A stretch of DNA of 64,000 bases from Polytrichum commune (Eukaryota; Streptophyta; Polytrichopsida; Polytrichales; Polytrichaceae). The stretch lies in the NCBI GenBank assembly GCA_950295325.1, contig OX485808.1, positions 18,682,527 to 18,746,526 on the forward strand. The letters are read 5' to 3'. Below, piece after piece: positions 5,330 through 56,170 of this stretch (position 1 is the stretch's first letter; every line of letters begins with the position of its first letter). Under the pieces are notes generated by a model. It was not told the origin of the DNA. It saw nothing but the letters and a program-made list of their open reading frames with translations, and did not search any database. The position numbers and the translations under genes are program-made.

Positions 5330-6235
5330 TGAGTTGGTTGTCTTCTTTGACAACCATCGAGCTTCATGCTCGCATATGCAATGGCCATCCAATTACACAT
5401 AATCCACCATTGGCAAAGTCGCTCACCCCCGTATGCACCTCGAAAGGTTTGTCAAGCTCCGCGAACTTGAGCACGGGCGGCGAAGAGAACTTGGTGTTAA
5501 GCTCCCCAAAGACTCGTGACAAACATCATCCCACTATTGGGATAGCCATTTCTTCCACAAGTCGGACAAGGTGGGACAACCATCGAGCTTCATGCTCTCA
5601 TATGCCATGGCCATCCATCTTGCCTCAACATCCGCCAATGGTAAAGTCACTCGCCCCCGTATGCACCTCAAAAGGTTTGTCAAACTCCGCGAACTTGAGC
5701 ACGGGCTGCGAAGGTCACTTGCTCTTAAGCTTCTCAAAGACTTGGTGGCAAGGCTCATCCCACTCTTGGGATAGCCATTTCTTTCACAAGTCGCACAAGG
5801 TTTGACAACCTTTAAGCTTAATGCTCCCATATGCAATGGGCATCCATCTTGGATCAACATCCGCCAATGGTAAAGTTACTCGCCCCCGTATGCACCTCAA
5901 AAGGTTTGTCAAATTTTGCAAACTTGAGCACGGGCGGCGAAGAAAACTTGGTCTTAAGCTCCTTAAAAACTTGGTGGCAAAGCTCATCCCACTTTTGGGA
6001 TAGCCATTTCTTGCATAAGTTGGACAAGGTCGGACAACCATCGAGATTCATGCTCTTATATGCAATGGCCATCCATTTTGCCTCAACATCCGCCAATGCT
6101 AAAGTCACTCGCCCCCGTATGCACCTCAAAAGGTTTGTCAAAGTCCGCGAACTTAAGCACGGGCGGCGAAGAGAACTTGTTTTTGAGCCCCCCAAAGGCT
6201 TGGTGACAAGGCTCATCCCACTCTTGGGATAGCCA
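5330..6235 (-). repeat. Four-copy tandem array of a ~229-bp unit at the RT/RNase H junction (A)
   Basis: The landmark GTATGCACCTC recurs at 5431, 5659, 5888 and 6117, spacings 228, 229 and 229. Each unit encodes, on the minus strand, the end of the RT connection (KKWLSQEWDEPCHQ), the link (FEELKTKFSSPPVLKFAEF) and the start of RNase H (DKPFEVHTGAS, then IAYxSxKLDGC). Only the leftmost unit runs on into the rest of RNase H; the others join back to a new RT end. In every unit the first RNase H catalytic Asp (HTDAS) is Gly (HTGAS). Confidence 0.9.
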
Positions 6236-6600
6236 TTTTCTTCAATAAGTTGAATAAGGTCCTAGCAACCTTAGAAAACTCTCGAATGAAGTTGTGGTAC
6301 TAACTGGCTAGGCCAACAAATGACCTAAGCCCTTTTGAATCAAGGGCCAATTCTCCTTTTGGATTGCCTTGACATTCTTCATGTTCGTCCACCAACTTCA
6401 TTTATCACCACATACCTCAAGAGCTCAATCTCTCGTTGAACAAAGTTATTTTTCACTTCTTGGCGGTAATTTTTTTTTTGGGCAACATATTGGTGAATAC
6501 ATCCTTGTATTTCACCAACATCACACCAATATTATTTGGGGGAGGCCCATCTTTCCTAGCCTCCCCATACGTTCCTTGGAGTTGCTCCAATTGAACCACG
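6236..6600 (-). pseudogene. Element A RT remnant without catalytic core
   Basis: Minus strand: the N-terminal RT lead-in (RYKDVFTNVLP) is followed, across a junction at about 6441-6462, directly by REIEFLxYVV and then LRSFVGLAN...FIREFS, which belong near the RT C-terminus. The fingers and palm, including the YxDD motif, are absent. The same junction is found in the other copies, so it was inherited rather than private to A. Confidence 0.8.
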
Positions 6601-7010
6601 ACCATTATGTTTTCCTTTTTTTTATTCGGTCCATTAAGACCAAATTCAACTTAGGTCCTCCTACCATAGGAGTCATTGTTAATTTGAACTTCAATTCTTT
6701 GCCATTATGACACATCATAATGCACCGCAAGCACACCGGCTTGCACCTCACATCTATCATGTGAGTTTCAAAGAAGGCGGCCTTCACAATGACATGCATT
6801 TTATCTATTTCACTTGGTGTGAAATTTTGACAAAAATCCAATGTCCCACGTTGAAAGGTTACATGCATCGCGGCCTCCTTTGTCTCATGCGGATCGCCCT
6901 TTCCAAACCGCACCTTGGTGGGCTTGGCCGCTCTACCAATCGGCAAGCCCCAACTCCCTTATGAATTTTGGGCTCAAGAAGAAGTGGTAGCCTCTTTATC
7001 AATACATGAG
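6601..7010 (-). pseudogene. Element A protease-like region (broken)
   Basis: Minus-strand frame 6605-6946 carries KPTKVRFGKGDPHETKEAAM, CQNFTPSEIDKMHVIVKAAF and MVGGPKLNLVL, the body of a retropepsin-like domain in plant gypsy elements. The catalytic DTGA position in front of it is altered and stop-containing here (TGATAAAGAG in coding sense), matching D-K-E in other copies. Confidence 0.75.
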
Positions 7011-7740
7011 ACATTTCTCCCATTCATTTGAGCCTCAAGGTACAAAAGACTTGGCCTCGGCTTAAGGCTACTAGCCTTGGCCACAATGCCATCGTCTTAC
7101 ATTCGGTTCGCGGCACAAGTATTATTTGGCGGGGTACCTATCTCCCCTCAACGTCCATTGTTGTAACGCACCGCCAAATTGCTTAATGGGATCATCAGCC
7201 TTGATGCTCATGGCAATTTTGATGATCCCCGCCACAACCTCAATAAACTTTGGAAATTTGAACTTGGTATTCACCACCCGCTTTTGAAACCCACCTAAAA
7301 CGATGTATTTCTTAGAAAACTCGTTCATCTAAGATGTACAATTCATTTGGGTGTGAAATGCGTGCATATACGCCTTAAGAGGCCCGAACGCCTCATTTCC
7401 ACCAAATTCATTCCAACATCAATACCTTCCAAGCATTTGGAATTGGAATTTCAATCCAACAATAATGCCCTCCAAGGTTTTGGGTGCTTTCGGTATTCTA
7501 GGCCCCAAATGTTTTTTTGAGGTTTGCGGGAGTCCTTTTCAAAGCACTCCTCCATTTTCCTCACCGAATCCACCCTCATGCCCACCATTACCATTAAAAT
7601 CAATGGTATGGTCAAACTCCATTTGCACATGATCCTTGTTCCAATTTGAGCCTCACAACCTTTTGGAAACCCCGGGCTCACCATCATAACCCGCATTTTT
7701 TATACCCATGTTTCCCTCAAAGTGCGAGCTCAAAACTTGG
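7011..7740 (-). pseudogene. Element A gag remnant with shortened nucleocapsid region
   Basis: Lies between the PBS and protease. Recognisable family stretches are the N-terminal region near 7451-7696 (MCKWSLTIPLILMVMVGMRV) and NEFSKKYIVLGGFQK near 7260-7328. The Cys-rich tandem repeat region present in E, F and H is reduced to about 60 bp near 7085-7140. Several frameshifts; no intact Gag. Confidence 0.65.
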
Positions 7741-7746
7741 AACCCT

Positions 7747-7758
7747 GCTCTGATACCA
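7747..7758 (-). other. Primer binding site of element A (tRNA-iMet)
   Basis: Minus-strand TGGTATCAGAGC, two bases inside the 5' LTR. It is complementary to the 3' end of plant initiator-Met tRNA. Confidence 0.95.
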
Positions 7759-7760
7759 AG

Positions 7761-8752
7761 TGTCGCAACCCTTGCTAGCCCCCCTTGACAATCTTGCCAA
7801 TTTTCGTTTCTAGCAAAGGTTACGAGCGCTAACCATTCGCATTCCGCCATGCTAATGGATAGCTCCTCTTACCCCGGACCCATAGTTCATAGGAGGGAAC
7901 CAACCCTCCTACTTTGCTTTCGGGACACACCCCTTTAATCGGTAACCAACCCCTTTAATCGGTAACCAATCCTTAGATGTGGACTTCCATCCATGGAAGT
8001 CCAATCTTATGTTGATCATCGCGTTGCCGGAGCAACACTACAACAACCCGAACCATGCTAGGCAACTATGGCCTCACAATGGGCCAAAGCCCATGGAGGC
8101 CGTGCCGTTCGGCCTCGGGTGGGTGAGGCCACACCACCTCACCCATATAAGCCTCTAGGACTCTACGCGGGGCCCCTACCCCACCGTCAACCAACCTCTT
8201 GTCTCTCTACCAAGAGTTGGGGCCAAGTGGACATTTCCCCTTAGCCGCTGGGCCTAGAAGCCCCCAGCAGCTTCAGACCATCATAACTTCCTTGTATGAT
8301 GTCTGATTCCAGCAACCAACCACTCCATCTTCATCTACGCTTCACGTAGATGCCGATGGACTCCTCAGTTGCCCCATTCGGCAAGTCTTGAGGAAGTTAT
8401 GCCTGTTTGAACCTTGGCAGTCCCGGGAATCACTCCCAGGCACTGCTGTAGCAGGGCGCTGTCCCGGGACAGCGCCCCACTCAAATGGCCATAACTCCTA
8501 GCTCACACCTCCGATTGAGGTGTTCTTGAGCATTCTAGAATCACTACGCCATGAGCTACGCATAGCTCATGGCCTCACCCTCATGCCTCCTAGTCTTTGT
8601 GGGTGGGAGGCGTTCCCAACGCCCGGGGCCCTCACCCACACTAGGATCACTTGGGCCCTCTCACCAACGGCGCCACAAGTCCCGGGTGTCACTCCGGGGT
8701 CCCCCTTGTGCCCATGGTGTTTCGGCCACTCCTCATGGAGAGGTGCGCGACA
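7761..8752 (-). repeat. Element A 5' LTR (992 bp)
   Basis: Near-identical partner of 1734-2726, including the same internal short tandem duplication (7930-7966). By eye there are single-base differences around 7880, 8268 and 8369, plus one missing base near 8377. Confidence 0.95.
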
Positions 8753-9195: not shown

Positions 9196-10168
9196 TGTCG
9201 CGCACCTCTCCATGAGGAGTGGCCGAAACACCATGGGCACAAGGGGGACCCCGGAGTGACACCCGGGACTTGTGGCGCCGTTGGTGAGAGGGCCCAAGTG
9301 ATCCTAGTGTGGGTGAGGGCCCCGGGCGTTGGGAACGCCTCCCACCCACAAAGACTAGGAGGCATGAGGGTGAGGCCATGAGCTATGCGTAGCTCATGGC
9401 GTGGTGATTCTAGAATGCTCAAGATCACCTCAATCGGAGGTGTGAGCTAGGAGTTATGGCCATTTGAGTGGGGTGCTGTCCTGGGACAGCCCCCAGGTAC
9501 AGCAGTGCCTGGGAGTGATTCCCGGGACTGCCAAGGTTCAAACAGGCATAACTTCCTCAAGACTTGCCCGAATGGGGCAAGCGAGGAGTTCATCGGCATG
9601 TACGTGAAGCGTAGATGAGGATGGAGTGGTTGGTTGTGATGATCAGACATCATACAAGGAAGTTATGATGGTCTGAAGCTGCTGGGGGGGTTCTAGGCCC
9701 AGTAGCTAAGGGAAAATGTCCACTTGGCCCCAACTCTTGGTAGAGAGACAAGAGGTTGGTTGGCGGTGGGGTAGGGGCTCCGTGTAGAGTCCTAGAGGCT
9801 TATATGGGTGAGGTGGTGTGGCCTCACCCACCCGAGGCCGAACGGCACGGCCTCCATGGGCATTGGCCCATTGTGGGGCCATAGTTGCCTAGTATGGTTC
9901 GGGTTGTTGTAGTGTTGCTCCGGCAACGCGATGATCAACATAGGATTGGACTTCCATGGATGGAAGTCCACATTGGGGAAATGGGTTACCGATTAAGGGG
10001 TGAGTCCCGAAAGCAAAGTAGGAGGGTTGGTTCCCTCCTATGAACTATTGGTCCGGGGTAAGAGGAGCTATCCATTAGCATGGCGGAATGCGAAGGGTTA
10101 GCGCTCGTAACCTTTGCTAGAAACGAAAATTGGCAAGATTATTAAGGGACCTAGCAAGGGTTGCGACA
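9196..10168 (+). repeat. Element C 5' LTR (973 bp)
   Basis: TGTCGCGCACC to GGGTTGCGACA, followed after CT by the PBS. The central 22-bp palindrome seen in other LTRs (around 9474-9495) has decayed here. Confidence 0.95.
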
Positions 10169-10170
10169 CT

Positions 10171-10182
10171 TGGTATCAGAGC
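10171..10182 (+). other. Primer binding site of element C (tRNA-iMet)
   Basis: TGGTATCAGAGC, two bases after the 5' LTR. Confidence 0.95.
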
Positions 10183-10218
10183 AGGGTTCCAATATTTGAG
10201 CTAGCACTTTGAGGGAAG

Positions 10219-10990
10219 CATGGCTATCATATAAGAGGGTTATAATGGTGACCCGGGGTTTCCAAAAGGTTGTGAGGCTCAAATTGGAACAAAGATCATG
10301 TGTAAATGGAATTTGACCATACCATTGGTTCAAATGACAATGGTGGGCATGAGGGTGGATTCGGTGAGGAAAATGGAGGAGTGCTTTGAAAAGGCTCCCG
10401 CAAACCTCGAAAAGTATTCAGGGGCTAGAATACCGAATGCACCCAAAACCTTGGAGGGCATTAATGTTGGATTGAAATTCCAATTCGAAATGCTTAGAAG
10501 GTGGTGATGTTGAAATGAAGTTGGGGCACATGAGGCACGCGGGGTCTCTTAAGGCGTATATGTGCGAATTTCACACCCAAATGAATGGTACATCTAGGAT
10601 GGACAAGCTTTCTAAGAAATGCATCGTTTTAGGTGGGTTTCAAAAGCGGGTGGTGAAAACCATGTTCAAGACCCCAAAGCATCTTGAGGACGTAGTGCGA
10701 ATCATAAAGATTTGAAGAGCATTGAAGCCGATGTTCCTAAGAAGAAGTTGGACGGCACATCACCACAAAGTGGGTTTAGCCGAAAGAGGCCCCAAGGAAA
10801 TGAGCGCAAGTAGTTTGGCCCATTCTACCAAGGCAAATCATGCTAGCTCGTGCCGTGGATGAAATGTGAGAAGGTGGTTTGGTGGTACCAAGCTAGATCA
10901 TATTTGTGCCACGGACGGAGTGTTAAAAGTTGGCCTTGCGGACCAAGCCAAACTCATGGTGTTGCCGAGGACCAAATGTTAGACGAAGGC
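10219..10990 (+). pseudogene. Element C gag and short nucleocapsid remnant
   Basis: Family gag stretches in two frames (10298-10507 and 10515-10715, the latter with DKLSKKCIVLGGFQKRVVK). The tail (10850-10990) retains about three Cys-rich repeat units (TGCCGTGGA, TGCCACGGACGG, TTGCCGAGGACC spacing). Stops and frameshifts throughout. Confidence 0.65.
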
Positions 10991-11039
10991 TTTGTGGCCA
11001 AGGCTAGTAGCCTTAAGCCAAGGCCAACTATTTTATATC

Positions 11040-11474
11040 TTGAGGCTCAAATGAATGGGACAAGCATCTAATGGGTTGACAAAGAGGCAAGCCATGCCTT
11101 CTTGAGCCCAAAACTCATAAGGGAGTTGGGGCTTGCCGATTGGTAGACCCGGCAAGCCCACCAAGGTGCGGTTTGGAAAGGGCAAACCGCATGAGACAAA
11201 GGAGGCCGCAATGCATGTAACCTTTCAACGTGGGACATTGGATTTTTGTCAAAATTTCACACCAAGTGAAATAGATAAAATGCATGTCATTGTGAAGGCC
11301 GCCTTCTTTGAAACTCACATGATAGATGTGAGGTGCAAGCCGGTGTGCTTGCGGTGCATTATGATGTGTCATAATGGCAAAGAATTGAAGTTCAAATTAA
11401 CAATGACTCCTATGGTAGGAGGACCTAAGTTGAATTTGGTCTTAATGGACCGAATAAAAAAAAGGAAAACATAA
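11040..11474 (+). pseudogene. Element C protease-like region (catalytic motif altered)
   Basis: The frame before 11133 reads VDKEASHAFLSPK, aligning with the retropepsin motif VDTGASHxF. Asp is kept but Thr-Gly are Lys-Glu. The body of the domain (11133-11474) is one open frame of 113 codons with KPTKVRFGKGKPHETKEAAM and CQNFTPSEIDKMHVIVKAAF. Confidence 0.75.
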
Positions 11475-11839
11475 TGGTCGTGGTTCAATTGGAGCAACTC
11501 CAAGGAACGTATGGGGAGGCTAGGAAAGATGGGCCTCCCCCAAATAATATTGGTGTGATGTTGGTGAAATACAAGGATGTATTCACCAATGTGTTGCCCA
11601 AAAAAAAATTACCGCCAAGAAGTGAAAAATAACTTTGTTCAACGAGAGATTGAGCTCTTGAGTTATGTGGTGATAAATGAAGTTGGTGGACGAACATGAA
11701 GAATGTCAAGGCAATCCGAAAGGAGAATTGGCCCTTGATTCAAAAGGGCTTAGGTCATTTGTTGGCCTAGCCAATTAGTATTACAACTTCATTCGAGAGT
11801 TTTCTAAGGTTGCTAGGACCTTATTCAACTTATTGAGGA
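11475..11839 (+). pseudogene. Element C RT remnant without catalytic core
   Basis: YKDVFTNVLP (around 11570-11600) passes at 11617-11632 into FVQREIELLSYVV and then LRSFVGLAN and FIREFSKVARTLFNLL. RT motifs between these, including YxDD, are absent. A TAG interrupts the NYY position (ANxYYN) near 11777. Confidence 0.8.
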
Positions 11840-12650
11840 AAATGGCTATCCCAAGAGTGGGATGAGCCTTGTCACCAAGCCTTTGGAGGGTTCAAAAACA
11901 AGTTCTCTTCGCCGCCCGTGCTTAAGTTCGCGGACTTTGACAAACCTTTTGAGGTGCATACGGGGGCGAGTGACTTTAGCATTGGCGGATGTTGAGGCAA
12001 AATGGATGGCCATTGCATATAAGAGCATGAATCTCGATGGTTGTCCGACCTTGTCCAACTTATGCAAGAAATGGCTATCCCAAAAGTGGGATGAGCTTTG
12101 CCACCAAGTCTTTAAGGAGCTTAAGACCAAGTTTTCTTCGCCGCCCGTGCTCAAGTTTGCGAAATTTGACAAACCTTTTGAGGTGCATACGGGGGCGAGT
12201 AACTTTACCATTGGCGGATGTTGATCCAAGATGGATGCCCATTGCATATGGGAGCATTAAGCTTAAAGGTTGTCAAACCTTGTCCGACTTGTGAAAGAAA
12301 TGGCTATCCCAAGAGTGGGATGAGCCTTGCGACCAAGTCTTTGAGAAGCTTAAGAGCAAGTGACTTTACCATTGGCGGATGTTGAGGCAAGATGGATGGC
12401 CATGGCATATGAGAGCATGAAGCTCGATGGTTGTCCCACCTTGTGCGACTTGTGGAAGAAATGGCTATCCCAAGAGTGGGATGATGTTTGTCACGAGTCT
12501 TTGGGGAGCTTAACACCAAGTTCTCTTCACCGCCCGTGCTGAAGTTCGCGGAGCTTGACAAACCTTTCGAGGTGCATACGGGGGTGAATGCCTTTGCCAA
12601 TGGTGGATTATGTGTAAGATGGATGGCCATTGCATATGGGAGCATAAAGC
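11840..12650 (+). repeat. Tandem ~229-bp array at RT/RNase H junction (C, four units, one internally deleted)
   Basis: The landmark GAGGTGCATACGGGGG starts at 11951, 12180 and 12569. The 389-bp gap holds two unit starts, but the first of these lost about 68 bp (AAGAGCAAG joined to TGACTTTACC at 12360). The last unit runs into RNase H. HTGAS replaces HTDAS in every unit that keeps the site. Confidence 0.9.
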
Positions 12651-13020
12651 TCGATGGTTGTCAAAGAAGACAACCAACTCATGACAAAGAACTTCTTTGC
12701 CGTAGTGCATTGCTTGAAGATGTGGCGACATTATATGGGGTCGCACAAAGCAAAGGTCTACATGGACAACGTGTCCTAAAAGTATTTTGACATACAAGCG
12801 TAAGTGAACGCCAAGTCATTGCGGAGGCATGATAGTTTGGCGCTTATGAAGGTGGATTTGATCCACAAACCGGACCGTGGAAATGTGGTGCCGGATGCGC
12901 GAAGTAGACCGGAAGAGTTCCAAGCAATGAGAACCATCCAAACCTTGTGGCTAATGTGTGCCGGCGAAGGAAACTTGTGATGCAAGATACGGGAGGGGTA
13001 AATTAACTACCCCAAAGCAC
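12651..13020 (+). pseudogene. Element C RNase H, C-terminal part (broken)
   Basis: LDGCQRRQPTHDKELL is readable in frame 12488-12790, then a frameshift leads into the MDNVSLKYF-like segment and VDLIHKPDRGNVVPDARSRP (near 12845-12920). The catalytic Glu of KELL is retained; the first catalytic Asp is not. Confidence 0.75.
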
Positions 13021-13052
13021 AAAAGCTTTTAGGTGAGCTTCGCAAGAGCAAG

Positions 13053-14470
13053 GTGCTCAAAGAGGTTAAGTTGGTGGACGGATTGTTCAAGTGCAAACAA
13101 AGTCGGGTGTATGTGCCACAAGACAAGTTCAGGCTATCGGTTTTGAAGGAGGAATATGATAGTCCTATTGCCGGCCATAGAGGAGAAAGAAAAAGCCGTC
13201 ATAGAATGGTGTCAAAGAGGTACCATTGGCGGTGCATAAAGGAAGATATAGGCCACTTTGTGAAGGCTTGAATCAAAGTGCCAAGTGAACCGAGCCTCTC
13301 ACCAAAAGCAAGGCGGCTTCTTGCAACCGTTGCCTATCCCGTCGGCGTCATGGCATAGTATGTGCATGGACTTGATCACAAGTTTGCCGGAGTCACATGG
13401 GTATGATGCCATCTTGTTGATGGTAGAGCGGTTTGCCAAGTGGGCACACATGGTGCCGATTGTGGGAACCGCCACCGCGTTGGAGACCGCATAGCCTTTT
13501 CTCAAATGATGGTTGAAGCATCACGGGTTGCCACAAGTGATTGTGTGGGATCAAGATCCAAAGTTCACAAGTGCATTTTCAATGCATTTTTCTAGGAGGT
13601 CGTATTGAAACTAAGGTTTAGCACGACCTTGCATTCCCAAATGGATGGGAAAACAAAGCGTGTGAATGGAGTCTTGAAGCAATACTTGAGGAACTTGGTG
13701 GGGGCGGACCAAGGAGATTGGGCGGACTATGTGGGTCGAGCGGAGTGTAATTGCAATGTAGCCACGCAATTGGCTACCAAGGGGTGGTCTTTGGTGGTGG
13801 CTTATGGAGTGGATGCGCTCCAACCTATTAACCTAGCTCTCGAGGGGGCACATTCAACACTAGAGTTCAACCAAGATGGTGAGGACTTGGCCAAGGATGG
13901 TAAACAAGTTTTGGAGATGACCAAGTTGTTGGTGGAGAAAGCCCGAAGGTGCTACGGAGTGCAAATCAATGCCGGAAGACGCGAAGTGGAGTATGAGGTG
14001 GGCCAATAAGGTGTTGTTGAATGTGGACAACTTCACCTTGCCCAAAGGCCTTACTTTAAAAGTTCATGTCCAAAATTGGAGCTTCGTTTTCCATTGTGGA
14101 ACAAGTGTTCAAGGACATGTATAAGTTGGAATTACCACCGGACATCAAAGTGCATCCGACATTTCATGTCTCATTACGAAAGTCATTTTAGGACGACACC
14201 TTGTGGCCCGATCACAAGCAAGTGATTAGGCCACCTCCCGACCTTGTGGAGGTCATTTGGAACATGAGGTAGGAGGGCACCTTCAAGTGTAGGAAACCCA
14301 AGTGAAAATGAAAAAAATGTACAAAAGAGTACTTGGTGAAATGGTGAGGATACCATGAAAAAGAAACCGCTTGGGTGGCGGCAAGAGACATGGTGAACAC
14401 CAATGAATAGGTGAAGCACTTTGAAGAAACTAAGGCTAAGGATTCCAATAAAATGAAGCGTAGGCATTGA
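13053..14470 (+). pseudogene. Element C integrase and chromodomain (broken)
   Basis: Zinc-finger region 13053-13271 (ends in a TGA at the usual Cys position), first Asp segment 13285-13494 ending in the family TAG, second Asp in WDQDPKFTS (13530-13580, then a frame break), Glu in KRVNGVLKQYL within 13605-14009. The GPF-like linker and chromodomain follow to the TGA at 14468-14470. In the chromodomain, EYLVKW is followed by TGA where Arg or Lys is expected. Confidence 0.85.
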
Positions 14471-15249
14471 TGAGGACATCAATCTCCTTTAGTGGGGAGA
14501 GACGCTAGTAGCACACTTAGCTTCGAGGTTAATTATGCGACAACATGAACTTGTTCTTTGGCTTGAGGGAATAAAGTCCAAACTTTAGTGGTGCAAAGAG
14601 AAAAGTATGAGATGAGGTCCTAGTCTTGTACTTGTGCTTGGTTAATGGAAGAGGGGGAATAGACATGCCAAACTAGGTTGGGTAAGCCGAGTAATTGGGG
14701 CCATGGCTTGGAGGGGCCTTGGATAAAACCAAGAAACTTCTTAGTTGTGGGCTTGTCCGGGCGGGGACAAGGTGATGGCGCGTGCTCATAAAAGTGCTAC
14801 CCACGAGCTAATGAGAGTTGGCGCATGGGAGTCATGAACCCATGTCTCGAAAGAGCAAAGTGGGAACCGAGTCGGGCGGGACTTGGCATCACCCCCGTGC
14901 GATCGAGGCGTGGCTTAACAATGGAAAGTCATCTCGGAGTTGCAACCGAGACAACTTAGTGGAAGCGTTGAGGTCTCGCCTAGATGTGTCACGTTAGGCT
15001 AGTGGAGCCTAACGGGGGAGGCCCCAAAGGAGGGGCAACCCAAGTGAGTCCCAAAGTAGGTGGGTCTAGTATAGGTTAGGTCCTTGGATGGGAGATCCAA
15101 GGTCGCTAACGGACCACCTAGGAACGACACCTTTGGGACCATGCCAAATTTAAAGATGCATTGTGGGGGTCGCGCCCTAAGGTAAACACAATGCCGCACC
15201 ATAGAGGATGGCAACTTGAGAATTGGTGTGCCGACTATGAGTATAGTCG
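14471..15249 (+). other. Element C 3' non-coding region
   Basis: Conserved non-coding tail with hairpins such as GTTAGGCT/AGCCTAAC (14994-15014). Relative to the other copies about 20 bp just before the PPT are missing. Confidence 0.7.
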
Positions 15250-15261
15250 ATGAGGGGTGAG
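15250..15261 (+). other. Polypurine tract of element C (variant)
   Basis: ATGAGGGGTGAG abuts the 3' LTR. A deletion has shortened the usual GGTGGGGGTGAG, probably after insertion. Confidence 0.65.
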
Positions 15262-16234
15262 TGTCGCGCACCTCTCCATGAGGAGTGCCCGAAACACCAT
15301 GGGCACAAGGGGGACCCCGGAGTGACACCCGGGACTTGTGGCGCCGTTGGTGAGAGGGCCCAAGTGATCCTAGTGTGGGTGAGGGCCCTGGGCGTTGGGA
15401 ACGCCTCCCACCCACAAAGACTAGGAGGCATGAAAGTGAGGCCATGAGCTATGCGTAGCTCATGGCGTGGTGATTCTAGAATGCTCAAGATCACCTCAAT
15501 CGGAGGTGTGAGCTAGGAGTTATGGCCATTTGAGTGGGGTGCTGTCCTGGGACAGCGCCCAGGTACAGCAGTGCCTGGGAGTGATTCCCGGGACTGCCAA
15601 GGTTCAAACAGGCATAACTTCCTCAAGACTTGCCCGAATGGGGCAAGCGAGGAGTCCATCGGCATGTACGTGAAGCGTAGATGAGGATGGAGTGGTTGGT
15701 TGTGATGATCAGACATCATACAAGGAAGTTATGATGGTCTGAAGCTGCTGGGGGGGTTCTAGGCCCAGTAGCTAAGGGAAAACGTCCACTTGGCCCCAAC
15801 TCTTGGTAGAGAGACAAGAGGTTGGTTGGCGGTGGGGTAGGGGCTCCGTGTAGAGTCCTAGAGGCTTATATGGGTGAGGTGGTGTGGCATCACCCACCTG
15901 AGGCCGAACGGCACGGCCTCCATGGGTTTTGGCCCATTGTGGGGCCATAGTTGCCTAGTATGGTTCGGGTTGTTGTAGTGTTGCTCCGGCAACGCGATGA
16001 TCAACATAGGATTGGACTTCCATGGATGGAAGTCCACATTGGGGAAATGGGTTACCGATTAAGGGGTGAGTCCCGAAAGCAAAGTAGGAGGGTTGGTTCC
16101 CTCCTATGAACTATTGGTCCGGGGTAAGAGGAGCTATCCATTAGCATGGCGGAATGCGAAGGGTTAGCGCTCGTAACCTTTGCTAGAATTGAAAATTGGC
16201 AAGATTATTAAGGGACCTAGCAAGGGTTGCGACA
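15262..16234 (+). repeat. Element C 3' LTR (973 bp)
   Basis: Partner of 9196-10168. It ends GGGTTGCGACA and is followed by the ACTAT target duplication and the rest of solo LTR 1. Confidence 0.95.
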
Positions 16235-16929: not shown

Positions 16930-17660
16930 AGTGTCGCCACATCTTCAAGCAATACACTACACAAAGAAGTTCTTTGTCATGAGTTGGTTGTCTTCTTTGA
17001 CAACCATCGAGCTACATGCTCGCATATGCAATGGCCATCCATCTTACACATAATCCACCATTGGCAAAATCATTCACCCCCATATGCACCTCAAAAGGTT
17101 TGTCAAGCTCCGTGAACTTGAGCACGGGCGGCGAAGAGAACTTGGTCTTAAGCTCCCCAAAGACTCGTGACAAACATCATCCCACTCTTGGAATAGCCAT
17201 TTCTTCCACAAGTCGCACAAGGTGGGACAACCATCGAGCTTCATGCTCTCATATGCCATGGCCATCCATCTCGCCTCAACATCCGCCAATGGTAAAGTCA
17301 CTCGCCCCCGTATGCACCTCAAAAGGTTTGTCAAACTCCGCGAACTTGAGCACGGGCGGCGAAGAGAACTTGCTCTTAAGCTTCTCAGAGACATGGTGGC
17401 AAGGCCCATCCCACTCTTGGGATAGCCATTTCTTTCACAAGTCGCACAAGGTTTGACAACCTTTAAGCTTAATGCTTCCATATGCAATGGCCACCCATCT
17501 TGCATCATCAACATCCGCTAATAGTAAAGTCACTCGCCCCCATATGTACCTCAAAAGGTTTGTCAAGCTCCGGGAACTTGACCACGGGTGGCAAAGACAA
17601 CTTTGTATTAAGCTCCCCACAGACTTGGGGACAAGGCTCATCCCACTCTTAGGATAGCCA
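16930..17660 (-). repeat. Element B RNase H start and three-unit ~229-bp array
   Basis: The first 60 bp are the QRRQPTHDKELL segment of RNase H. The array landmark (x)ATATGCACC/GTATGCACC lies at 17081, 17310 and 17541 (spacings 229 and 231). The middle unit is the best preserved, with SSPPVLKF-like and FEVHTGAS sequence on the minus strand; the right unit is more diverged. Confidence 0.85.
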
Positions 17661-22130: not shown

Positions 22131-22132
22131 CG

Positions 22133-22144: not shown

Positions 22145-22170
22145 AGGGTTCCAAGTTTTGAGCTCGCACT

Positions 22171-22790: not shown

Positions 22791-22799
22791 TACTTAGGC

Positions 22800-42451: not shown

Positions 42452-42463
42452 CTCACCCCCACC
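42452..42463 (-). other. Polypurine tract of element H
   Basis: Minus-strand GGTGGGGGTGAG abutting the 3' LTR. Confidence 0.9.
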
Positions 42464-43264: not shown

Positions 43265-44683
43265 ATCAATGCCTACGCTTCATTTTATTGGAATCCTTAG
43301 CCTTAGTTTCTTCAAAGTGCTTTACCAATTCCTTGCCGTTCATCATGTCTCTTGCCGCGACCCAAACGGCTTCTTTCTCATGGTATCCTCACCATTTCAC
43401 CAAGTACTCCTTTGTACATTTTCTTTCATTTTCACTTGGGCTTCCTACACTTGAGGATGCCCTCTTACCTCATGTTCCAAATGACCTCCACAAGGTCGGG
43501 ACGTGGCCTAATCACTTGCTTGTGATCGGGCCACAAGGTGTCGTGCTAAAATGACTTTCGTAATGAGACATGAAATGTCGGATGCACTTTGATATCCGGC
43601 GGTAATTCCAACTTATACATGTCCTTGAACACTTGTTCCACAATGGAAAATGAAGCTCCAATTTTGGACATGAACTTTTGGAGCGAGGCCTTCCGGCTAA
43701 GTGAAGTTGTTCACATTCAACAACACCTTATGGCCCACCTCATTCTCCACTTCGCGTCTTCCGGCATTTACTAGCACTCCGTAGCACCTTCGGGCTTTCT
43801 CCACCAACAACTTGGTCATCTCCAAGACTTGTTTACCATCCTTGGCCAAGTCCTCACCATCTTGGTTAACCTCTAGTGTTGAATGTGCCCCCTCGAGAGC
43901 TAGGTTAATAGGTTGGAGCGCATCCACTCCATAAGCCACCACGAAAGACCACCCCTTGGTAGCCAAGTGCGTGGCTACATTGCAATTACACTCCGCTCGA
44001 CCCACATAGTCCGCCCAATCTCCTTGGTCCGCCCCCACCAAGTTCCTCAAGTATTGCTTCAAGTCTCCATTCACACGCTTTGTTTTCCCATCCATTTGGG
44101 AATACACGGCCGTGCTAAACCTTAGTTTCAATACAACCTCCTTAGAGAAATGCATTGAAAATGCACTTGTGAACTTTGGATCTTGATCCCACACAATCAC
44201 TCTTGGCAACCCGTGGTGCCTCAACCATCCTTTGAGAAAAGGCTATGCGGTCTCCAACGCGGTGGCGGTTCCCACAATCGGCACCATGTGTGCCAACTTG
44301 GCAAACCGCTCTACCATCAACAAGATGGCATCATACCCATGTGACTCCGGCAAACTTGTGATCAAGTCCATGCACATACTATGCCATGGCGCCGACGGGA
44401 TAGGCAACGGTTGCAAGAAACCGCCTTGCTTTTGGTAAGAGGCTCGGTTCTCTTGGCACTTTATTCACGCCTTCACAAAGTGGGTTATATCCTCCTTTAT
44501 GCACCGCCAATGGTACCTCCATGACACCATTCTATGGCGGTTTTTTCTTTCTCCTCTATGGCCGGCAATAGGACTATCACATTTTTCCTTCAAAACCGAT
44601 AGCCTCAACTTGCCTTGAGGCACATACACCCGACTTTGCTTACACTTGAACAATCCGTCCACCAACTTAGCCTCTTTGAGCAC
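43265..44683 (-). pseudogene. Element H integrase and chromodomain (broken)
   Basis: Minus strand: zinc-finger region 44465-44683 (KCDSPIAGHRGER; TGA at the Cys site), first Asp segment upstream of the TAG (CTA 44243-44245), second Asp and Glu frame 43697-44224 (WDQDPKFTS, KRVNGDLKQYL, continuing to NVNNFT), GPF-like linker, chromodomain ending at TCA 43265-43267. Confidence 0.85.
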
Positions 44684-44719
44684 CTTGCTCTTGCGAAGCT
44701 CACCTAAAAGCTTTTGTGC

Positions 44720-45110
44720 CTCGGGGTAGTTAATTTACCCCTCCCGTATCTTGCATCACAAGTTTCCTTCGCCGGCACACATTAGCCACAAGGTTTGGAT
44801 GGTTCTCATTGCTTGGAACTCATCCGGTCTACTTAGCGCATCCGGCACCACATTTCCATGGTCCGGTTTGTGGACCAAATCCACCTTCATAAGCGCCAAA
44901 CTATCATGCCAGCGCAATGATTTGGCGCTCACTTGCACTTGTATGTCAAAATACTTTTAGGACACATTGTCCTTGTAGACCTTTACTTTGTACGACCCCA
45001 ACTAGTGTCGCCACATCTTCAAGTAATGCACTACCGCAAAGAAGTTCTTTGTCATGAGTTGGTTGTCTTCTTTGACAACCATCGAGCTTCATGCTCGCAT
45101 ATGCAATGGC
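44720..45110 (-). pseudogene. Element H RNase H, C-terminal part (broken)
   Basis: Minus strand: CQRRQPTHDKELL in frame 44946-45200, then a shift to VSAKSLRWHDSLALMKVDLV and HKPDHGNVVPDALSRPDEF in frame 44756-44938. This is the best-preserved RNase H tail among the minus copies. Confidence 0.8.
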
Positions 45111-45740
45111 CATCCATCTTACACATAATCCATAATTGGCAAAGTTACTCGCCCCCGTATGCACCTCAAAAGGTTTGTCAAACTCCATGAACTTGAGCAC
45201 GGGCGGTGAAGAGGACTTGCTCTTAAGCTCCCCAAAGACTTGGTGACAAGGCTAGTCCCACTGTTGGGATAGCCATTTCTTTCACAAGTCGGACAAGGTC
45301 TTACAACCATCGAGCTTCATGTTCCCATATGCAATGGCCATTTTTTTTTTACATCCACATCCGCCAAATAAAATCTCTCGCCCCCGTATGCACCTCAAAA
45401 GGTATGTCAAACTCCGCGAACTTGAGCAGGGGCGGCAAAGAGAACTTCGTCTTAAGCTCCTCAATGGCTTGGTGGCACGGCTCATCCCACTCTTGGGATA
45501 GCCATTTCTTGCACAAGCCGGACAAAGTTCGACAACCATGGAGCTTAATGCTCTCATAAGCAATGGTCATCCATCTTGGATCAACATCCGCCAATGATAA
45601 AGTCCTTCGTCTCCATGTGCACCTCAAAATGCTTATGAAAACCCGGAAACTTAACCACATCTTGTGAAGGGAACTTGCTCTTGAGCTTCCCAAGGGCTTG
45701 GTGACAAGGCTCATCCCACTCTTGGAATAGCCATTTCCTC
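45111..45740 (-). repeat. Three-unit ~229-bp array (H)
   Basis: Landmarks at 45157, 45386 and 45614 (spacings 229 and 228). The third, outermost unit is diverged (CATGTGCACCTCAAAATGC), and resembles the first unit of W (GTGCACATGGAGGCG), so unit order is inherited between elements. Confidence 0.85.
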
Positions 45741-46120
45741 AATAAGTCGAGTAAGGCCCTAGCAACCTTAAAACAAATCTAGAATGAAGTGGTGGTAGTA
45801 GTTGGCTAGGCCAACCAATGACCTAAGCTCTTTTTTTTGAGTCAAGGACCAATTCTCCTCTTGGATTGCCTTGAAATTCTTCATGTTTGTCCACCAACTT
45901 CTTTTGTCACCACATGCCTCAAGAACTCAATTTCTTCTTGAGCAAAGTTGCAATTCACTTCTTGGCGGTAACATTTTGAGCAACACATTGGTGAATACAT
46001 CCTTGTATCTCACCAACATCACACCAATGTTGTTTGGGGGAGGCCCGTCTTTCCTAGCCTCCCCATACGTTCCTTGGAGTTGCTCCAATTGAACCACGAC
46101 CATTATGTTTACCATATTTC
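45741..46120 (-). pseudogene. Element H RT remnant without catalytic core
   Basis: Minus strand: VRYKDVFTNVLLKM joined at 45943-45963 to SRRNxVLEAC-type sequence equal to AQEEIEFLRHVV across a shift, then FVGLANYYHHF. Core RT motifs absent. Confidence 0.75.
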
Positions 46121-46520
46121 ATTTGGTCCATTAATACCAAATTCAACTTGGGTCCTCCTACCATAGGAGTCCTTGTCAATTTGAACTTCAATTCTTTGCC
46201 ATTATGACACATCATAATGCACCGCAAGCACACCGGCTTGCACCTCACATCTATCATGTGAGTTTCAAAGAAGGCGGCCTTCACAATGACATGCATTTCA
46301 TCTATTTCACATGGTGTGAAATTTTGACAAAATTCCAATGTCCCACATTGAAAGGTTACATGCATCGCGGCCTCCTTTGTCTCATGCGGTTCGCCCTTTC
46401 CAAACCACACCTTGGTTGGCTTCACCACTCTACCAATCGGCAAACCCCAACTCCCTTGTGAGCTTTGGGGTCATGAAAGAATGCCTTAACTCTTTGTCAA
46501 CCCATGAGACAAGCCTCCCA
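46121..46520 (-). pseudogene. Element H protease-like region (D-K-E motif)
   Basis: Minus strand: VDKELRHSFMTPKL (near 46460-46500) in the same open frame as the nucleocapsid repeats (46430-46870), then the KPTKVWFGKGEPHETKEAAM body in frame 46054-46443. A frame change at about 46440 separates them. Confidence 0.75.
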
Positions 46521-46539
46521 TTCATTTGAGCCTCAAGGT

Positions 46540-46900
46540 ACAAAATACTTGGCCTCGGCTTAAGGCTACTAGCCTTGGCCACAAAGCCATCGTCCAACAT
46601 TTGGTCCTCGGCAACTTGGCTTGGCTTGGTCCGCAAAGCCAACTTTAAACATTTCGTCCGCGGGACAAATTGGTTTGGTGCCACAAAACCAATTTCTAAT
46701 AATTTGTCCGCAAAACAAACATGTTTTGCCTTGGTAGCACAAAGCCACCTTCCCACACTCCGTCCGCGGCACGAACATGAATTGCCTTGGTAGGACAAAC
46801 CCACCTCCCAACATTCCGTCCGTGGCACAAGTATGATTTGCTTTGGAAGCATAAATCCACCTTTCAACATTCCGTCCGCGGCACCAACATGTTTTCCCTA
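46540..46900 (-). repeat. Nucleocapsid tandem repeats of element H
   Basis: Two long overlapping minus frames of 146 codons each (46430-46870 and 46569-47009) pass through about six 52-57-bp units without a stop, the longest such run in the window (KTCWCRGRNVERWIY, CRGRSVGRWLC, KHVCFADKLLEIGF). Confidence 0.75.
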
Positions 46901-47520
46901 AGTAAATTGGACCAAACAATTTGCACTCATTTCTTTGGGACCTACTTTGGCTAAAGCCACTTGTGGTGATGCGCCGCCGAACTTCTCTTTTTAGGACCAT
47001 CGACTTCAATGTTCTTCAAATCTTAAAGATTCCCGATACATCCTCAAGAAGCTTTGGGGACTCCGACATGGAATTCACCACCCGCTTTTGAATTCCCACC
47101 TAAAACGATGCATGTCTCACAAGGTCGTCCATTTTAGGTGTATCCTTCACTTGTGCGTTTGAATAGCGCACATAGGCCTTAAGAGGCCCCGGGTGCCTCA
47201 TTTGCACCAATTCCAACATCACCACCTTTTAAGCATTTCAAATTGGAATTTCAATCCAAAATTAATACCCTCCAAGGTTTTAGGTGCATTCGGTATTCTA
47301 GGCCCCAAATATTTTTGGAGGTTTGTGGGAGCCCTTTTCAAAGCACTCCTTCATTTTCCTTACCGAATCCACCTTAGTGCCCACCATTGTCATTAGAACC
47401 AATGGTATGGTCAAACTCCACTTGCACATGATCCTTGTTCCAATTTAAGCCTCACAACCTTTTGGAAACCACGGGCTCACCATCACAACCCGCATTTTTT
47501 GATAGCCATGTTTCCCTCAA
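46901..47520 (-). pseudogene. Element H gag remnant
   Basis: Gag stretches on the minus strand near 47050-47140 and 47330-47500, with several stops. More diverged from E than F is; nearly identical to the gag of W (53620-54120). Confidence 0.65.
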
Positions 47521-47546
47521 AGTGCGAGCTCAAAATTTGAAACCCT

Positions 47547-47558
47547 GCTCTGATACCA
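47547..47558 (-). other. Primer binding site of element H (tRNA-iMet)
   Basis: Minus-strand TGGTATCAGAGC. Confidence 0.95.
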
Positions 47559-47560
47559 CG

Positions 47561-48536
47561 TGTCGCAACCCTTGCTAGTCCCCCTTGACCATCTTGCCAA
47601 TTTTCAATTCTAGCAAAGGTTACGAGTGCCTAACCCTTCGCATACCGCCATGCTAATGGTTAGCTCCTTTAACCCCGGACCAATAGTTCATAGGAGGGAA
47701 CCAACCCTCCTACTTTGCTTTCGGGACTCACCCCTTAATCGGTAACCCATTTCCCCAATGTGGACTTCCATCCATGGAAGTCCAATCCTATGTTGATCAT
47801 CGCGTTGCCGGAGCAACACTACAACAACCCGAACCATACTAGGCAACTATGGCCTCACAATGGGCCAATGCCCATGGAGGCCTTGCCGTTCGGCCTCGGG
47901 TGGGTGAGGCCACACCACCTCACCCATATAAGCCTCTAGGACTCTACACGGAGCCCCTACCCCACCGCCAACCAACCTCTTGTCTCTCTACCAAGAGTTG
48001 GGGCCAAGTGGACATTTTCCCTTAGCTGCTGGGCCTAGAACCCCCCCAGCAGCTTCAGACCATCATAACTTCCTTGTATGATGTCTGATCATAACAACCA
48101 ACCACTCCATCCTCATCTACGCTTCACGTAGATGCCGATGGACTGCTCGCTTGCCCCATTCGGGCAAGTCTTGAGGAAGTTATGCCTGTTTGAACCTTGG
48201 CAGTCCCGGGAATCACTCCCAGGCACTGCTGTACCAGGGCGCTGTCCCGGGACAGCGCCCCACTCAAATGGCCATAACTCCTAGCTCCCACCTCCGCTTG
48301 AGGTGATCTTGAGCATTCTAGAATCACCACGCCATGAGCTATGCATAGCTCATGGCCTCACCCTCATGCCTCCTAGTCTTTGTGGGTGGGGAGGCGTTCC
48401 CAACGCCCGGGGCCCTCACCCACACTAGGATCACTTGGGCCCTCTCACCAACGGTGCCACATGTCCCGGGTGTCACTCCGGGGTCCCCCTTGTGCCCATG
48501 GTGTTTCGGGCACTCCTCATGGAGAGGTGCGCGACA
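47561..48536 (-). repeat. Element H 5' LTR (976 bp)
   Basis: Partner of 41477-42451, ending GTGCGCGACA and followed by the GGACC duplication and the rest of Y. Confidence 0.95.
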
Positions 48537-48950: not shown

Positions 48951-49340
48951 GAAAATGGCTATCCCAAGAGTGGGATGAGCCTTGCCACCAAGTCTTTGAG
49001 GAGCTTAAGACCAAGTTCCTCTTTACCACCCGTGTTCAAGTTCGCGGAGCTTGAAAAACCTTTTGAGGTGCATACGGGGGGCGAGTGACTTTACCATTGG
49101 CGGATGTTGATGCAAGATGGATGGCCATTGCATATGAGAGCATGAAGCTCGATGGTTCGACTTGTGAAAGAAATGGCTATCCCAAGAGTGGGATGATGTT
49201 TGTCATGAGTCTTTGGGGAGCTTAAGACCAAGTTCTCTTCCCCGCCCGTGCTCAAGTTTGCGGAGCTTGACAAACCTTTTGAGGGGTGCATACGGGGGTG
49301 AATGACTTTGCCAATGGTGGATTGTTGATGTAAGATGGAT
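48951..49340 (+). repeat. Two-unit ~229-bp array (Y)
   Basis: Landmarks at 49065 and 49281 (spacing 216; about 13 bp lost after GATGGTTCGACTTG). This is the shortest array in the window, showing that copy number varies from two to four. Confidence 0.85.
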
Positions 49341-49700
49341 GGCCTTTGCATATGCGAGCATGAAGCTCGATGGTTGTCAAAGAAGACAACCAACTCATGA
49401 CAAAGAACTTCTTTGCCGTAGTGCATTGTTTGAAGATGTGGCGACACTATTTGGGGTCGCACAAAGCAAAGGTCTACATGGACAATGTGTCCTAAAAGAA
49501 TTTTGACATTCAATCGCAAGTGAGCGCCAAGTCATTGCGGTGGCATGATAGTTTGGCGTTTATAAAGGTGGATTTGATCCACAATCCGGACTGTGGTAAT
49601 GTGGTGCGGATGCGCTAAGTAGACCAGATGAGTTCCAATCATTGAGAACCATCCAAACCTTGTGGCTAATGTGTGCCGGCGAAGGAAACTTGTGATGCAA
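49341..49700 (+). pseudogene. Element Y RNase H, C-terminal part (broken)
   Basis: LDGCQRRQPTHDKELL, then frame breaks, VDLIHNPDCGN and a one-base loss in the PDALSR segment. Confidence 0.7.
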
Positions 49701-52595: not shown

Positions 52596-53572
52596 TGTCG
52601 CGCACCTCTCCATGAGGAGTGCCCGAAACACCATGGGCACAAGGGGGACCCCGGAGTGACACCCGGGACTTGTGGCGCCGTTGGTGAGAGGGCCCAAGTG
52701 ATCCTAGTGTGGGTGAGGGCCCCGGGCGTTGGGAACGCCTCCCACCCACGAAGATTAGGAGGCACAAGGGTAAGGCCATGAGTTATGCGTAGCTCATGGC
52801 GTGGTGATTCTAGAAAGCTCAAGAACACCTCAATCGGAGGTGTGAGCTAGGAGTTATGGCCATTTGAGTGGGGCGCTGTCCCGGGACAGCGCCCTGGTAC
52901 AGCAGTGCCTGGGAGTGATTCCCGGGACTGCCAAGGTTCAAACAGGCATAACTTCCTCAAGACTTGCTCAAATGGAGCAAGTGAGGAGTCCATCGGCATC
53001 TACGTGAAGCGTAGATGAACATGGAGTGGTTGGTTGTTATGATCAGACATCATACAAGGAAGTTATGATGGTCTGAAGCTGCTGGGGGGGTTCTAGGCCC
53101 AGCAGCTAAAGGAAAATGTCCACTTGGCCCCAACTCTTGGTAGAGAGACAAGAGGTTGGTTGACGGTGGGGAAGGGGCCCCGCGTGAAGTCCTAGAGGCT
53201 TATATGGGTGAGGTGGTGTGGCCTCACCCACCCGAGGCCGAACGGTATGGCCTCCATGGGCATTGGCCCAATGTGAGGCCATAGTTGCCTAGTATGACTC
53301 GGGTCGTTGTAGTGTTGCTCCGGCAACGCGATGATCAACATAAGATGGGACTTCCATGGATGGAAGTCCACATCTAGGAATGGGTTACCGATTAAGGGGT
53401 GAGTCCCGAAAGCAAAGTAGGAGGGTTGGTTCCCCTCCTATGAACTATATGGTCCGGGGTAAGAGGAGCTAACCATTAGCATGGCGGAATGTAAAGGGTT
53501 AGCGACTCGTAACCTTTGCTAGAATTGAAAATTGGCAAGATTGTCAAGGGGGGGCTAGCAAGGGTTGCGACA
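52596..53572 (+). repeat. Element W 5' LTR (977 bp)
   Basis: Contains a perfect 22-bp palindrome (52872-52893), the T:A hairpin (52962-52969 / 52975-52982), a CATCTACG stem (52997-53004 / 53010-53017) and an AGCTGCTGGG stem (53077-53086 / 53098-53107). The TATA-like TTATATGG lies at 53200-53207; on the opposite strand it reads CCATATAAGCC. Confidence 0.97.
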
Positions 53573-53574
53573 TT

Positions 53575-53586
53575 TGGTATCAGAGC
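53575..53586 (+). other. Primer binding site of element W (tRNA-iMet)
   Basis: TGGTATCAGAGC, two bases (TT) after the LTR. Confidence 0.95.
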
Positions 53587-53619
53587 AGGGTTCCAAATTT
53601 TGAGCTCGCAGTTTGAGGG

Positions 53620-54120
53620 AAACATGGCTATCAAAAAAATGCGGGTTGTGATGGTGAGCCCGTGGTTTCCAAAAGGTTGTGAGGCTTAAATTGGAACAAG
53701 GATCATGTGCAAGTGGAGTTTGACCATATCATTGGTTCTAATGACAATGGTGGGCACTAAGGTGGATTCGGTAAGGAAAATGAAGGAGTGCTTTGAAAAG
53801 GGCTCCCACAAACCTCCAAAAGTATTTGGGGCCTAGAATACCGAATGCACCTAAAACCTTGGAGGGTATTAATTTTGGATTGAAATTCCAATTTGAAATG
53901 CTTAAAAGGTGGTGATGTTGGAATTGGTGCAAATGAGGCACCCGGGGCCTCTTAAGGCCTATGTGCGCTATTCAAACGCACAAGTGAAGGATACACCTAA
54001 AATGGACGACCTTGTGAGACATGCATCGTTTTAGGTGGGAATTCAAAAGCGGGTGGTGAATTCCATGTCCGAGTCCCCAAAGCTTCTTGAGGACGTATCG
54101 GGAATCTTTAAGATTTGAAG
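53620..54120 (+). pseudogene. Element W gag remnant
   Basis: Gag-like stretches with early stops (a TAA after GTGAGGCT near 53690) and shifted frames; no open frame over 80 codons. Broken even though the LTRs are identical, so the breaks predate this insertion. The same stop-bearing gag is in H. Confidence 0.65.
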
Positions 54121-54124
54121 AACA

Positions 54125-54505
54125 TTGAAATTGATGGTCCTAAAAAGAAGTTCGACGGCGTACCACCATGAAGTGGGTTTAGCCGAAAAAGGTCTCAAGG
54201 AAATGGGCGTAAGTAGTGTGGCCGTTATACCAAGGCAAATCATGCTCGTTCCGCGGACGCAATGTGGGAAGGTGGCTTTGTGGTACCAAGCCAAATCATA
54301 TTTGTGCCGTATGCGGAATGTTAGAAGTTGGTTTTATGCTACTAATCCATATAATGTTTGGGCCGCGGACGGAATGTTACAATGTGAATTGGTGGTACCA
54401 AGCTAGAACATATTTGTGCCGCGGACGGGATGTTAAAAGTTGGCTTTGCGGACCAAGCCAAAACATATTGTTGCCGTGGACCGAATGTTAGACTATGGCT
54501 TTGTG
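54125..54505 (+). repeat. Nucleocapsid tandem repeats of element W
   Basis: About five units (cores near 54250, 54305, 54362, 54419 and 54473, spacings 54-57). Frame 54216-54491 is open for 91 codons: GKSCSFRGRNVGRWLCGTKP and NHICAVCGMLEVGF. The CAVCGML stretch is the closest thing to a CX2C knuckle in the family. Confidence 0.75.
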
Positions 54506-54559
54506 GCCAAGGCTAATAGCCTTAAGCCAAGGCCAAGTCTTTTATACCTTGAGGCTCAA

Positions 54560-54990
54560 GTAATCGGAGATATGTCTCATGAGTTGACAAAGAGGCAATG
54601 GACTCTTTCATGAGCCCAAAGCTCATAAGGGGGTTGGGGCTTGTCGACGCATAGAGCGGGCAAGCCCACCAAGGTGCGGTTTGCAAAGGGCGAACCGCAT
54701 GAAGCAAAGGAAGCCGCGATGCATGTAACCTTTCAATGTGGGACATTGAATTTTGTCAAAATTTCACACCATGTGAAATTAATAAGGTGCATGTCATTGT
54801 AAAGATCACCTTCTTTGAAACTCACGTGATAGATGTGAGGCCGAAGCCGGTGTGCTTGCGGTGCATTATGATGTGTCATAATGACAAGGAGATGAAGTTC
54901 AAATTGACAAGGACTCCTATGGTAGGAGGATCCAAGTTGAATTTGGTCTTAATGGACCAAATGCAAAATGAAAAACATAATGGTTGGAGT
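54560..54990 (+). pseudogene. Element W protease-like region (D-K-E motif)
   Basis: GAC 54586-54588 begins D-K-E-A-M-D-S-F where D-T-G-A is expected. The body is split by a frameshift near 54745; the second part (54736-55029) includes CQNFTPCEINKVHVIVKITF and MVGGSKLNLVLMDQMQ. Confidence 0.75.
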
Positions 54991-55009
54991 TCAATTGGAG
55001 CAACTCCAA

Positions 55010-55345
55010 AGAACTTATGGGGAGGCTAGGAAAGATGGGCCTCCCCTAAACCGTTTGGTGAGATACAAGGATGTATTCACCAATGTGTTGCCCAAAAAGT
55101 TACCGCCAAGGAGTAAAAAATAACTTTGCTCAACAAGAGATTGAGTTCTTGAGGTATGTGGTGACAAAGGAAGTTGGTGGACGAACATGAAGAATGTGAA
55201 GGCAATCCAAAAGGAGAACTGGCCCTTCATTCAAAAAAGGCTTAGGTCATTTGTTGGCCTAGCCAACTACTACCACCACTTCATTCGAGAGTTTTTGAAG
55301 GTTGCTAGGACCTTATTCAACTTATTGAAGGAAACGGCTATCCCA
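55010..55345 (+). pseudogene. Element W RT remnant without catalytic core
   Basis: RYKDVFTNVLPKKLPPR, then TAA at the junction (55107-55127), FAQQEIEFLRYVVTKE, FVGLANYYHHFIREFLKVAR. Same core deletion as in older copies, which dates the deletion before the most recent transposition. Confidence 0.85.
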
Positions 55346-56170
55346 AGAGTGGGATGAGCCTTGTCGCCAAGCCTTTGGGGAGCTCAAGAGCAAGTTCTCT
55401 TCACAAGATGTGGTTAAGTTTCCGGGTTTTCATAAGCATTTTGAGGTGCACATGGAGGCGAAGGATTTTACCATTGGTGGATGTTGATCCAAGATGGATG
55501 ACCATTGCTTGTGGGAGCATTAAGCTCCATGGTTGTGGAACCTTGTCCGGCTTGTGCAAGAAATGGTTATCCCAAGAGTGGGATGAGCCTTGCCACAAAG
55601 CCTTTGGGGAACTTAAGAGAAAGTTTTCTTCGCCGCTTGTGCTCAAGTTCGCGTAGCTTGACTATCCTTTTGAGGTGCATATGGGGGCGAGTGACTTTAC
55701 CATTGGCGGATGTTGAGGCAAAATGGATGGCCATTGCAGATAAGAGCATGAAGCTCGATGGTTGTCCGACCTCGTCCAACTTGTGCAAGAAATGGCTATC
55801 CCAAGAGTGGGATGAGCCTTCCCACCAAGTCTTTGAGGAGCTTAAGACCAAGTTCTCTTCGCCGCCCGTGCTCAAGTTCGCGGAGTTTGACATACCTTTT
55901 GAGGTGCATACGGGGGCGAGTAACTTTACCATTGGCGGATGTGATCCAAGATGGATGCCCATTGCATATGGGAGCATTAAGCTTAACGGTTGTCGAACCT
56001 TGTGCGACTTGTGAAAGAAAAGGCTATCCGAAGAGTGGGATGAGCCTTTTCACCAAGTCTTTGGGGAGCTTAAGAGCAAGTTCTCTTCGCCGCCCGTGCT
56101 CAAGTTCGCGGAGTTTGAGAAACCTTTTGAAGTGCATACGGGGGCGAGTGACTTTGCCAATGGTGGATTA
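55346..56170 (+). repeat. Four-unit ~229-bp array at the RT/RNase H junction (W)
   Basis: Landmarks at 55443, 55672, 55901 and 56129 (spacings 229, 229 and 228). Unit 1 is the most diverged (FEVHMEAKDFTIGGC) and units 2-4 resemble each other, as expected if unit 1 is the ancestral copy and the others spread by duplication. The frame 55505-56014 crosses two units for 169 codons. Confidence 0.92.

Follow-up and report, generated by a model that had tools for sequence, protein, structure and literature searches.

The 64,000-nucleotide window analysed here (Polytrichum commune, assembly GCA_950295325.1, contig OX485808.1, positions 18,682,527 to 18,746,526 of the forward strand) is a nest of copies of one long terminal repeat (LTR) retrotransposon family, and these copies carry, within the remnants of pol, a tandem array with a modal unit period of 229 bp. 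The array lies between the tail of reverse transcriptase (RT) and ribonuclease H (RNase H). In our reading, to which we assign a probability of about 0.75, the nest consists of coding-dead chromovirus copies that inherited the array and were moved in trans, and units were gained and lost by template switching or by recombination or gene conversion.

Tandem arrays at the RT/RNase H border

A preliminary description based on the sequence alone had reported arrays at eight places in the window. All eight are real: Tandem Repeats Finder (TRF) detected arrays with a period of 218-234 at each of them (5349-6250, 11817-12361, 16996-17667, 23933-24622, 28272-29017, 45148-45737, 48953-49375 and 55331-56222), and the coordinates first given agree to within about 100 bp. 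Units were counted by scanning with a 40-base anchor placed at the unit start, with five base-shuffled windows as a control. The scan found 26 unit starts across the eight arrays and 0 in the shuffled windows. Arrays A, C, B, E, H, Y and W below rest on TRF, the anchor scan and unit comparison, with permutation in addition for E.

5323..6238, minus strand: array A, 4 units (229, 229, 229 and the last)
11840..12687, plus strand: array C, 4 units, the third 161 bp (68 bp short)
16974..17663, minus strand: array B, 3 units
23956..24647, plus strand: array E, 3 units, the first chimeric (A1-like, then A2-like)
28250..28935, minus strand: array F, 3 units, truncated on either side, with a partial further (fourth) unit at 28936-29017
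32629..32786, plus strand: ninth copy, starting within a last unit and adjoining an LTR end
45050..45736, minus strand: array H, 3 units
48953..49399, plus strand: array Y, 2 units
55332..56246, plus strand: array W, 4 units

The anchor scan thus bears out a unit number that varies between copies from two to four, four being the maximum in the window. Among 18 start-to-start distances, 229 occurred in 12 and 228 in 2, with 161, 218, 232 and 234 in 1 each. Of the unit length originally given as 228-234 bp, the values 228, 229, 232 and 234 were therefore seen, but the mode is 229 rather than 228 and units of 161 and 218 also exist. Every array lies inside an element copy, and none was found outside the copies in the window. 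Each of the seven copies in which the RT tail and the RNase H exit are both preserved (A, B, C, E, H, Y and W) has at least two units, in agreement with the proposal that every element carries the array.

The identity proposed for the unit also held. Two stop-free, unit-holding pieces of W match Pfam family PF17919 RT_RNaseH_2 (2.5e-13 and 8.6e-10), and together with the translations this shows that the unit extends from the RT end into RNase H. As had been noticed, the sequence goes on through RNase H from the last unit alone: the continuation CAAAGAAGACAACC is present in 8/8 last units. The outermost units of H and W had been singled out as the most diverged, and H1 and W1 are indeed 70-84% identical to other units and 94% to each other.

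One inherited array

A unit-level tree, which had been suggested as a check, was built by maximum likelihood from the 26 units. In it all eight last units fall into a single clade (100/100). Several inner units group by position across elements, with clades of H1 and W1 (100/100), A1 and C1 (100/97), A2 and C2 (100/99) and A3, C3 and B2 (96/89). Arrays A and C are 96-99% identical when units at the same position are compared, whereas units A1-A4 are 80-90% identical among themselves, a pattern opposite to that of homogenised units. Comparisons, tree and permutations, read together rather than put to a formal test, suggest that unit types keep a compatible order across copies that differ in unit number. 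Judged from these unit sequences, the array was inherited by the family and not remade in each element, because the last units form one clade and several inner units pair by position across copies.

Elements that carry the array

Five copies are near-complete, and their LTR pairs are 98.7-100% identical.

1734..8752, minus strand: element A, 4/992 LTR mismatches (99.60%), target-site duplication ACATT
9196..16234, plus strand: element C, 13/973 LTR mismatches (98.66%), target-site duplication ACTAT
21159..28222, plus strand: element E, 1/972 LTR mismatches (99.90%), without target-site duplication
41477..48536, minus strand: element H, 13/975 LTR mismatches (98.67%), target-site duplication GGACC
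52596..59820, plus strand: element W, 0/977 LTR mismatches (100%), target-site duplication TTAGT

Target-site duplications of 5 bp flank four of the five (A, C, H and W). The 99.9% LTR pair of E without a duplication is what may be seen after recombination between copies. By their LTR pairs, the five near-complete copies are recent arrivals, each of which moved with its array. The LTRs end in TGTCGC..GCGACA, of the TG..CA type, and are followed at the position of the transfer RNA (tRNA) primer site by TGGTATCAGAGC, which we take to be an initiator-Met tRNA primer site. The family is placed as a plant-type chromovirus (Ty3/gypsy) by a chromodomain remnant that follows the end of the integrase remnant in W. 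An excerpt of PMC6317226 reports chromodomains in no group except chromoviruses.

57443..57829, plus strand: integrase C-terminal remnant (PF24626 SH3_Tf2-1, 1.2e-11)
57828..58028, plus strand: chromodomain remnant (PF00385, 3e-9)

Both LTRs of A also contain a perfect 20-bp tandem duplication (1902-1942 and 7929-7969); TRF lists none in the other LTRs. A 692-bp LTR piece at 16233-16924 lies in reverse orientation, head to head against the end of the 3' LTR of C.

Decay of the coding sequence

The preliminary description had placed the array at a border of catalytic domains. That these are working domains is not supported: the search for the RT core gave no match, and every copy examined has a broken RNase H. 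The RT tail was compared in A, B, C, E, H, Y and W, and RNase H in A, C, E, H, W, Y and the ninth copy.

55060..55335, plus strand: in W, start of RT joined to the RT tail, the catalytic block between them being absent, followed by RT tail that carries a shared stop
56205..56480, plus strand: RNase H remnant after array W, with a stop after NVS

The RT deletion junction is the same in 7/7 copies and one stop in the RT tail is common to all of them; the stop after NVS is likewise common to the 7/7 copies compared for RNase H. In the relative P0091, an RVT_1 domain with YIDD stands directly before this tail. The P0091 tail matched at 8 places in the window (expect value 0.008 or better). Its YIDD block gave nothing better than 0.16 against the window, so the RT catalytic block was not found, and matches of full-length P0091 in the window start at residue 44 or later. 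Pfam did not find RVT_1 on 7 window pieces around the deletion, where two matches fell below the cut-off.

At the first catalytic position of RNase H, an aspartate codon is present in 0/25 readable units. The residue there is mostly glycine, with glutamate in H1 and W1; E2 and Y1 have small insertions at the site and C3 does not include it. The corresponding TDAN of the relative P0009 aligns with TDAS of a Ty3 RT-RNase H chain, and we take the aspartate of these motifs to be the catalytic one. Changes by codon position were 35, 29 and 41 in the first 126 unit positions (p 0.36) and 12, 10 and 7 in a stretch of integrase from 8 copies (p 0.52); for RNase H after the array, in 7 copies, we give the counts only (15, 15 and 22). 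By these counts, the stretches tested are without codon constraint. The integrase stretch (13495-13740 in C) is open in 7/8 copies, yet has no third-position excess. Before RVN/HVN in this stretch, C and H (43996-44242) have Lys and the six other copies have Glu.

In the intact relative P0029 the stretch that corresponds to the unit has 76 codons, or 228 bp, the unit junctions are in phase on translation, and the 228-bp units W3 and F2 read through. The earlier proposal that the original duplication kept frame may thus be correct for the founding event. It does not extend to the present arrays: just 3/18 distances are divisible by three, and in translation the frame of most units is broken after ..IGG. 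No Pfam family was found in three pieces taken where gag usually lies, although this search was not exhaustive and absence of gag is not proven. On the sequence evidence, the elements are coding-dead and the family no longer encodes a working RT or RNase H. With these enzymes missing or broken in copies that moved recently, the elements are non-autonomous.

Relatives outside the window

The last unit of W matched 28 proteins. The junction motif is present in 16/28, and among the 24/28 in which the site motif was found only P0009 has the aspartate. A search with P0009 returned 209 proteins, of which the best 120 were listed. Among these listed matches (118 further proteins), the junction motif occurred in 0/118 and the aspartate in 54/67 with a rough site motif. 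The missing junctions are partly a matter of selection, because the query for this set was a single-unit protein and a limit on length applied. Named relatives among the matches listed are plants (Striga, Cucumis, Prunus, Olea and Bauhinia), and intact single-unit relatives exist outside the window. Viral contigs yielded 2 stretches that fit a pattern, none confirmed, and 0 exact matches to a 25-base pattern; bacterial and archaeal genomes yielded 115 stretches that fit a pattern, again with 0 confirmed. The last unit of W had 0 matches among solved structures, while the relatives P0014 and P0009 reach Ty3 and other RT/RNase H chains.

Gain and loss of units

We searched for chimeric units with a maximum-chi-square scan over 7365 triplets, five of which were then permuted 2,000,000 times. 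The clearest case is E1, which is A1-like at 17:0 sites and then A2-like (1:17); 0 of 2,000,000 permutations were as extreme, and the count was again 0 when A1 was taken as the chimera instead. For B1, F1 and W3, 16, 47 and 188 permutations were as extreme. Exchange extends beyond the array. The 5' part was compared in segments of 300 columns. H shares 98% identity with W in segments one and two and 74% in segment three, in which its identity to E is 98%; B goes with E at first and, in segment four, with W (93% versus 85% for E). From these alignments the elements are mosaics, each composed of pieces of others. Together with the chimeric units, this mosaic structure suggests recombination or template switching in a unit-shifted register, of which we favour template switching during reverse transcription.

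The proposed course of events would be as follows. The first duplication would go back to an early backward jump in reverse transcription between sites that have GGTTG in common. The family would be moved in trans by an intact relative, and units would later have been added and removed by unit-shifted template switching between co-packaged RNAs or else by genomic events, either unequal recombination or gene conversion. The array travels with an element that was probably moved in trans, and is most likely a tolerated passenger in a decayed pol.

Several observations count against this account. The GGTTG match has just 5 bases, and its upstream copy is missing in E. No target-site duplication was found at E, and no intact partner was found in the window. 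Support is weak at 9/23 inner forks of the unit tree. Given 7365 triplets, only E1/A1 clearly stands as a chimera, B1 being borderline and F1 and W3 failing; F1 moreover joins a later type to an earlier type, an order that deletion alone does not produce. Gene conversion could have made the mosaics as well. By eye, the relatives P0006 and P0024 look single-unit with a broken site, so that RNase H may have broken before or after the duplication.

Changes in unit number may also have been confined to the genome, through unequal crossing-over or conversion among the copies of the nest, with none during reverse transcription. We consider this unlikely, though it deserves serious weight. Many near-identical copies lie side by side, the mosaicism is compatible with gene conversion, and an excerpt of PMC4432496 places remodelling of the variable number tandem repeat of primate LAVA and SVA elements at the DNA level. 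On the other hand, W and E, with 0-1 LTR mismatches, already differ in unit number, and mosaic blocks cover the whole 5' part and not just the array; neither point is decisive.

Comparison with known arrays

The comparisons here follow excerpts of the cited papers. Ogre, Gmr9/GmOgre and Retand, Ty3/gypsy elements of the Tat lineage, have tandem arrays between pol and the 3' LTR (PMC7004042, PMC3305785, PMC11963269). The arrays described here resemble them: they are short, sit within a Ty3/gypsy element that spreads them, and vary from copy to copy, and the element is non-autonomous as some Tat-lineage members are. They differ in lying inside pol remnants, together with a chromodomain remnant. 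As in maize CRM1TR and CRM4TR, the tandem repeat comes from a chromovirus and may likewise go back to illegitimate recombination at short matches, but those repeats arose from the LTR and untranslated region and form long arrays outside the element (PMC3648361). Gag-related repeats of Aegilops and rye and satellites from open reading frame 2 of long interspersed nuclear elements likewise have retroelement coding sequence as their unit, but these are satellites, while our array is kept inside the element; the RT/RNase H border was not found among the coding sources in the excerpt of that review (PMC9659126). LAVA and SVA share a central tandem array, a changing unit number and movement in trans, but are non-LTR elements of primates with units of 30-50 bp (PMC4432496).

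The position had been called unusual, and this stands, known Ty3/gypsy arrays lying chiefly between pol and the 3' LTR. No array at the RT/RNase H border was described in the titles and abstract openings of the open-licence literature searched. What is new is the position inside the pol remnants of a coding-dead chromovirus, arrays within Ty3/gypsy elements being already known. The window shows a tandem array that was born inside pol, became the inheritance of a family and spread with that family once the enzymes had been lost. Its units have an age that allows them to be distinguished, and so they record how arrays gain and lose units during retrotransposition, which homogenised satellites hide.

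The array might instead be the seed of host satellite DNA or have been captured from it. Nine Lathyrus satellites are reported, in an excerpt of PMC7004042, to have arisen from short arrays inside Ogre elements, and if long free arrays of the unit occur in the host genome, the route by which coding sequence became satellite could be traced. The arrays of the window have at most four units and all lie inside elements, their units are not homogenised, and derivation of the unit from the element's own pol speaks against capture; we regard this reading as improbable. Quite doubtful, too, is a larger role, in which a long-lived non-autonomous chromovirus lineage turned its decayed RT/RNase H border into a tandem module acting in cis that persists through repeated transposition, aids recombination or packaging and is able to give rise to satellites from coding sequence. 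A separate duplication in each element at a slippage hotspot would fit the varying unit number, but it is very hard to reconcile with the single clade of last units and the unit-by-unit likeness of A and C, and the unit tree opposes independent duplication. Least credible of all is an array read as additional protein repeats of a functional polyprotein, by frameshifting for example: the 76-codon equivalent in P0029, in-phase junctions and read-through units speak for it, but the missing RT block and catalytic aspartate speak against it, and the period counts, shared stops and codon-position test oppose a frame-keeping protein array.

A second tandem array

TRF also found a tandem array of 56-bp units, in 2.2 to 5 copies, upstream, where gag would be expected.

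18664-18845: 56-bp array
20546-20671: 56-bp array
22796-23012: 56-bp array
30806-30990: 56-bp array
46715-46899: 56-bp array
54228-54506: 56-bp array

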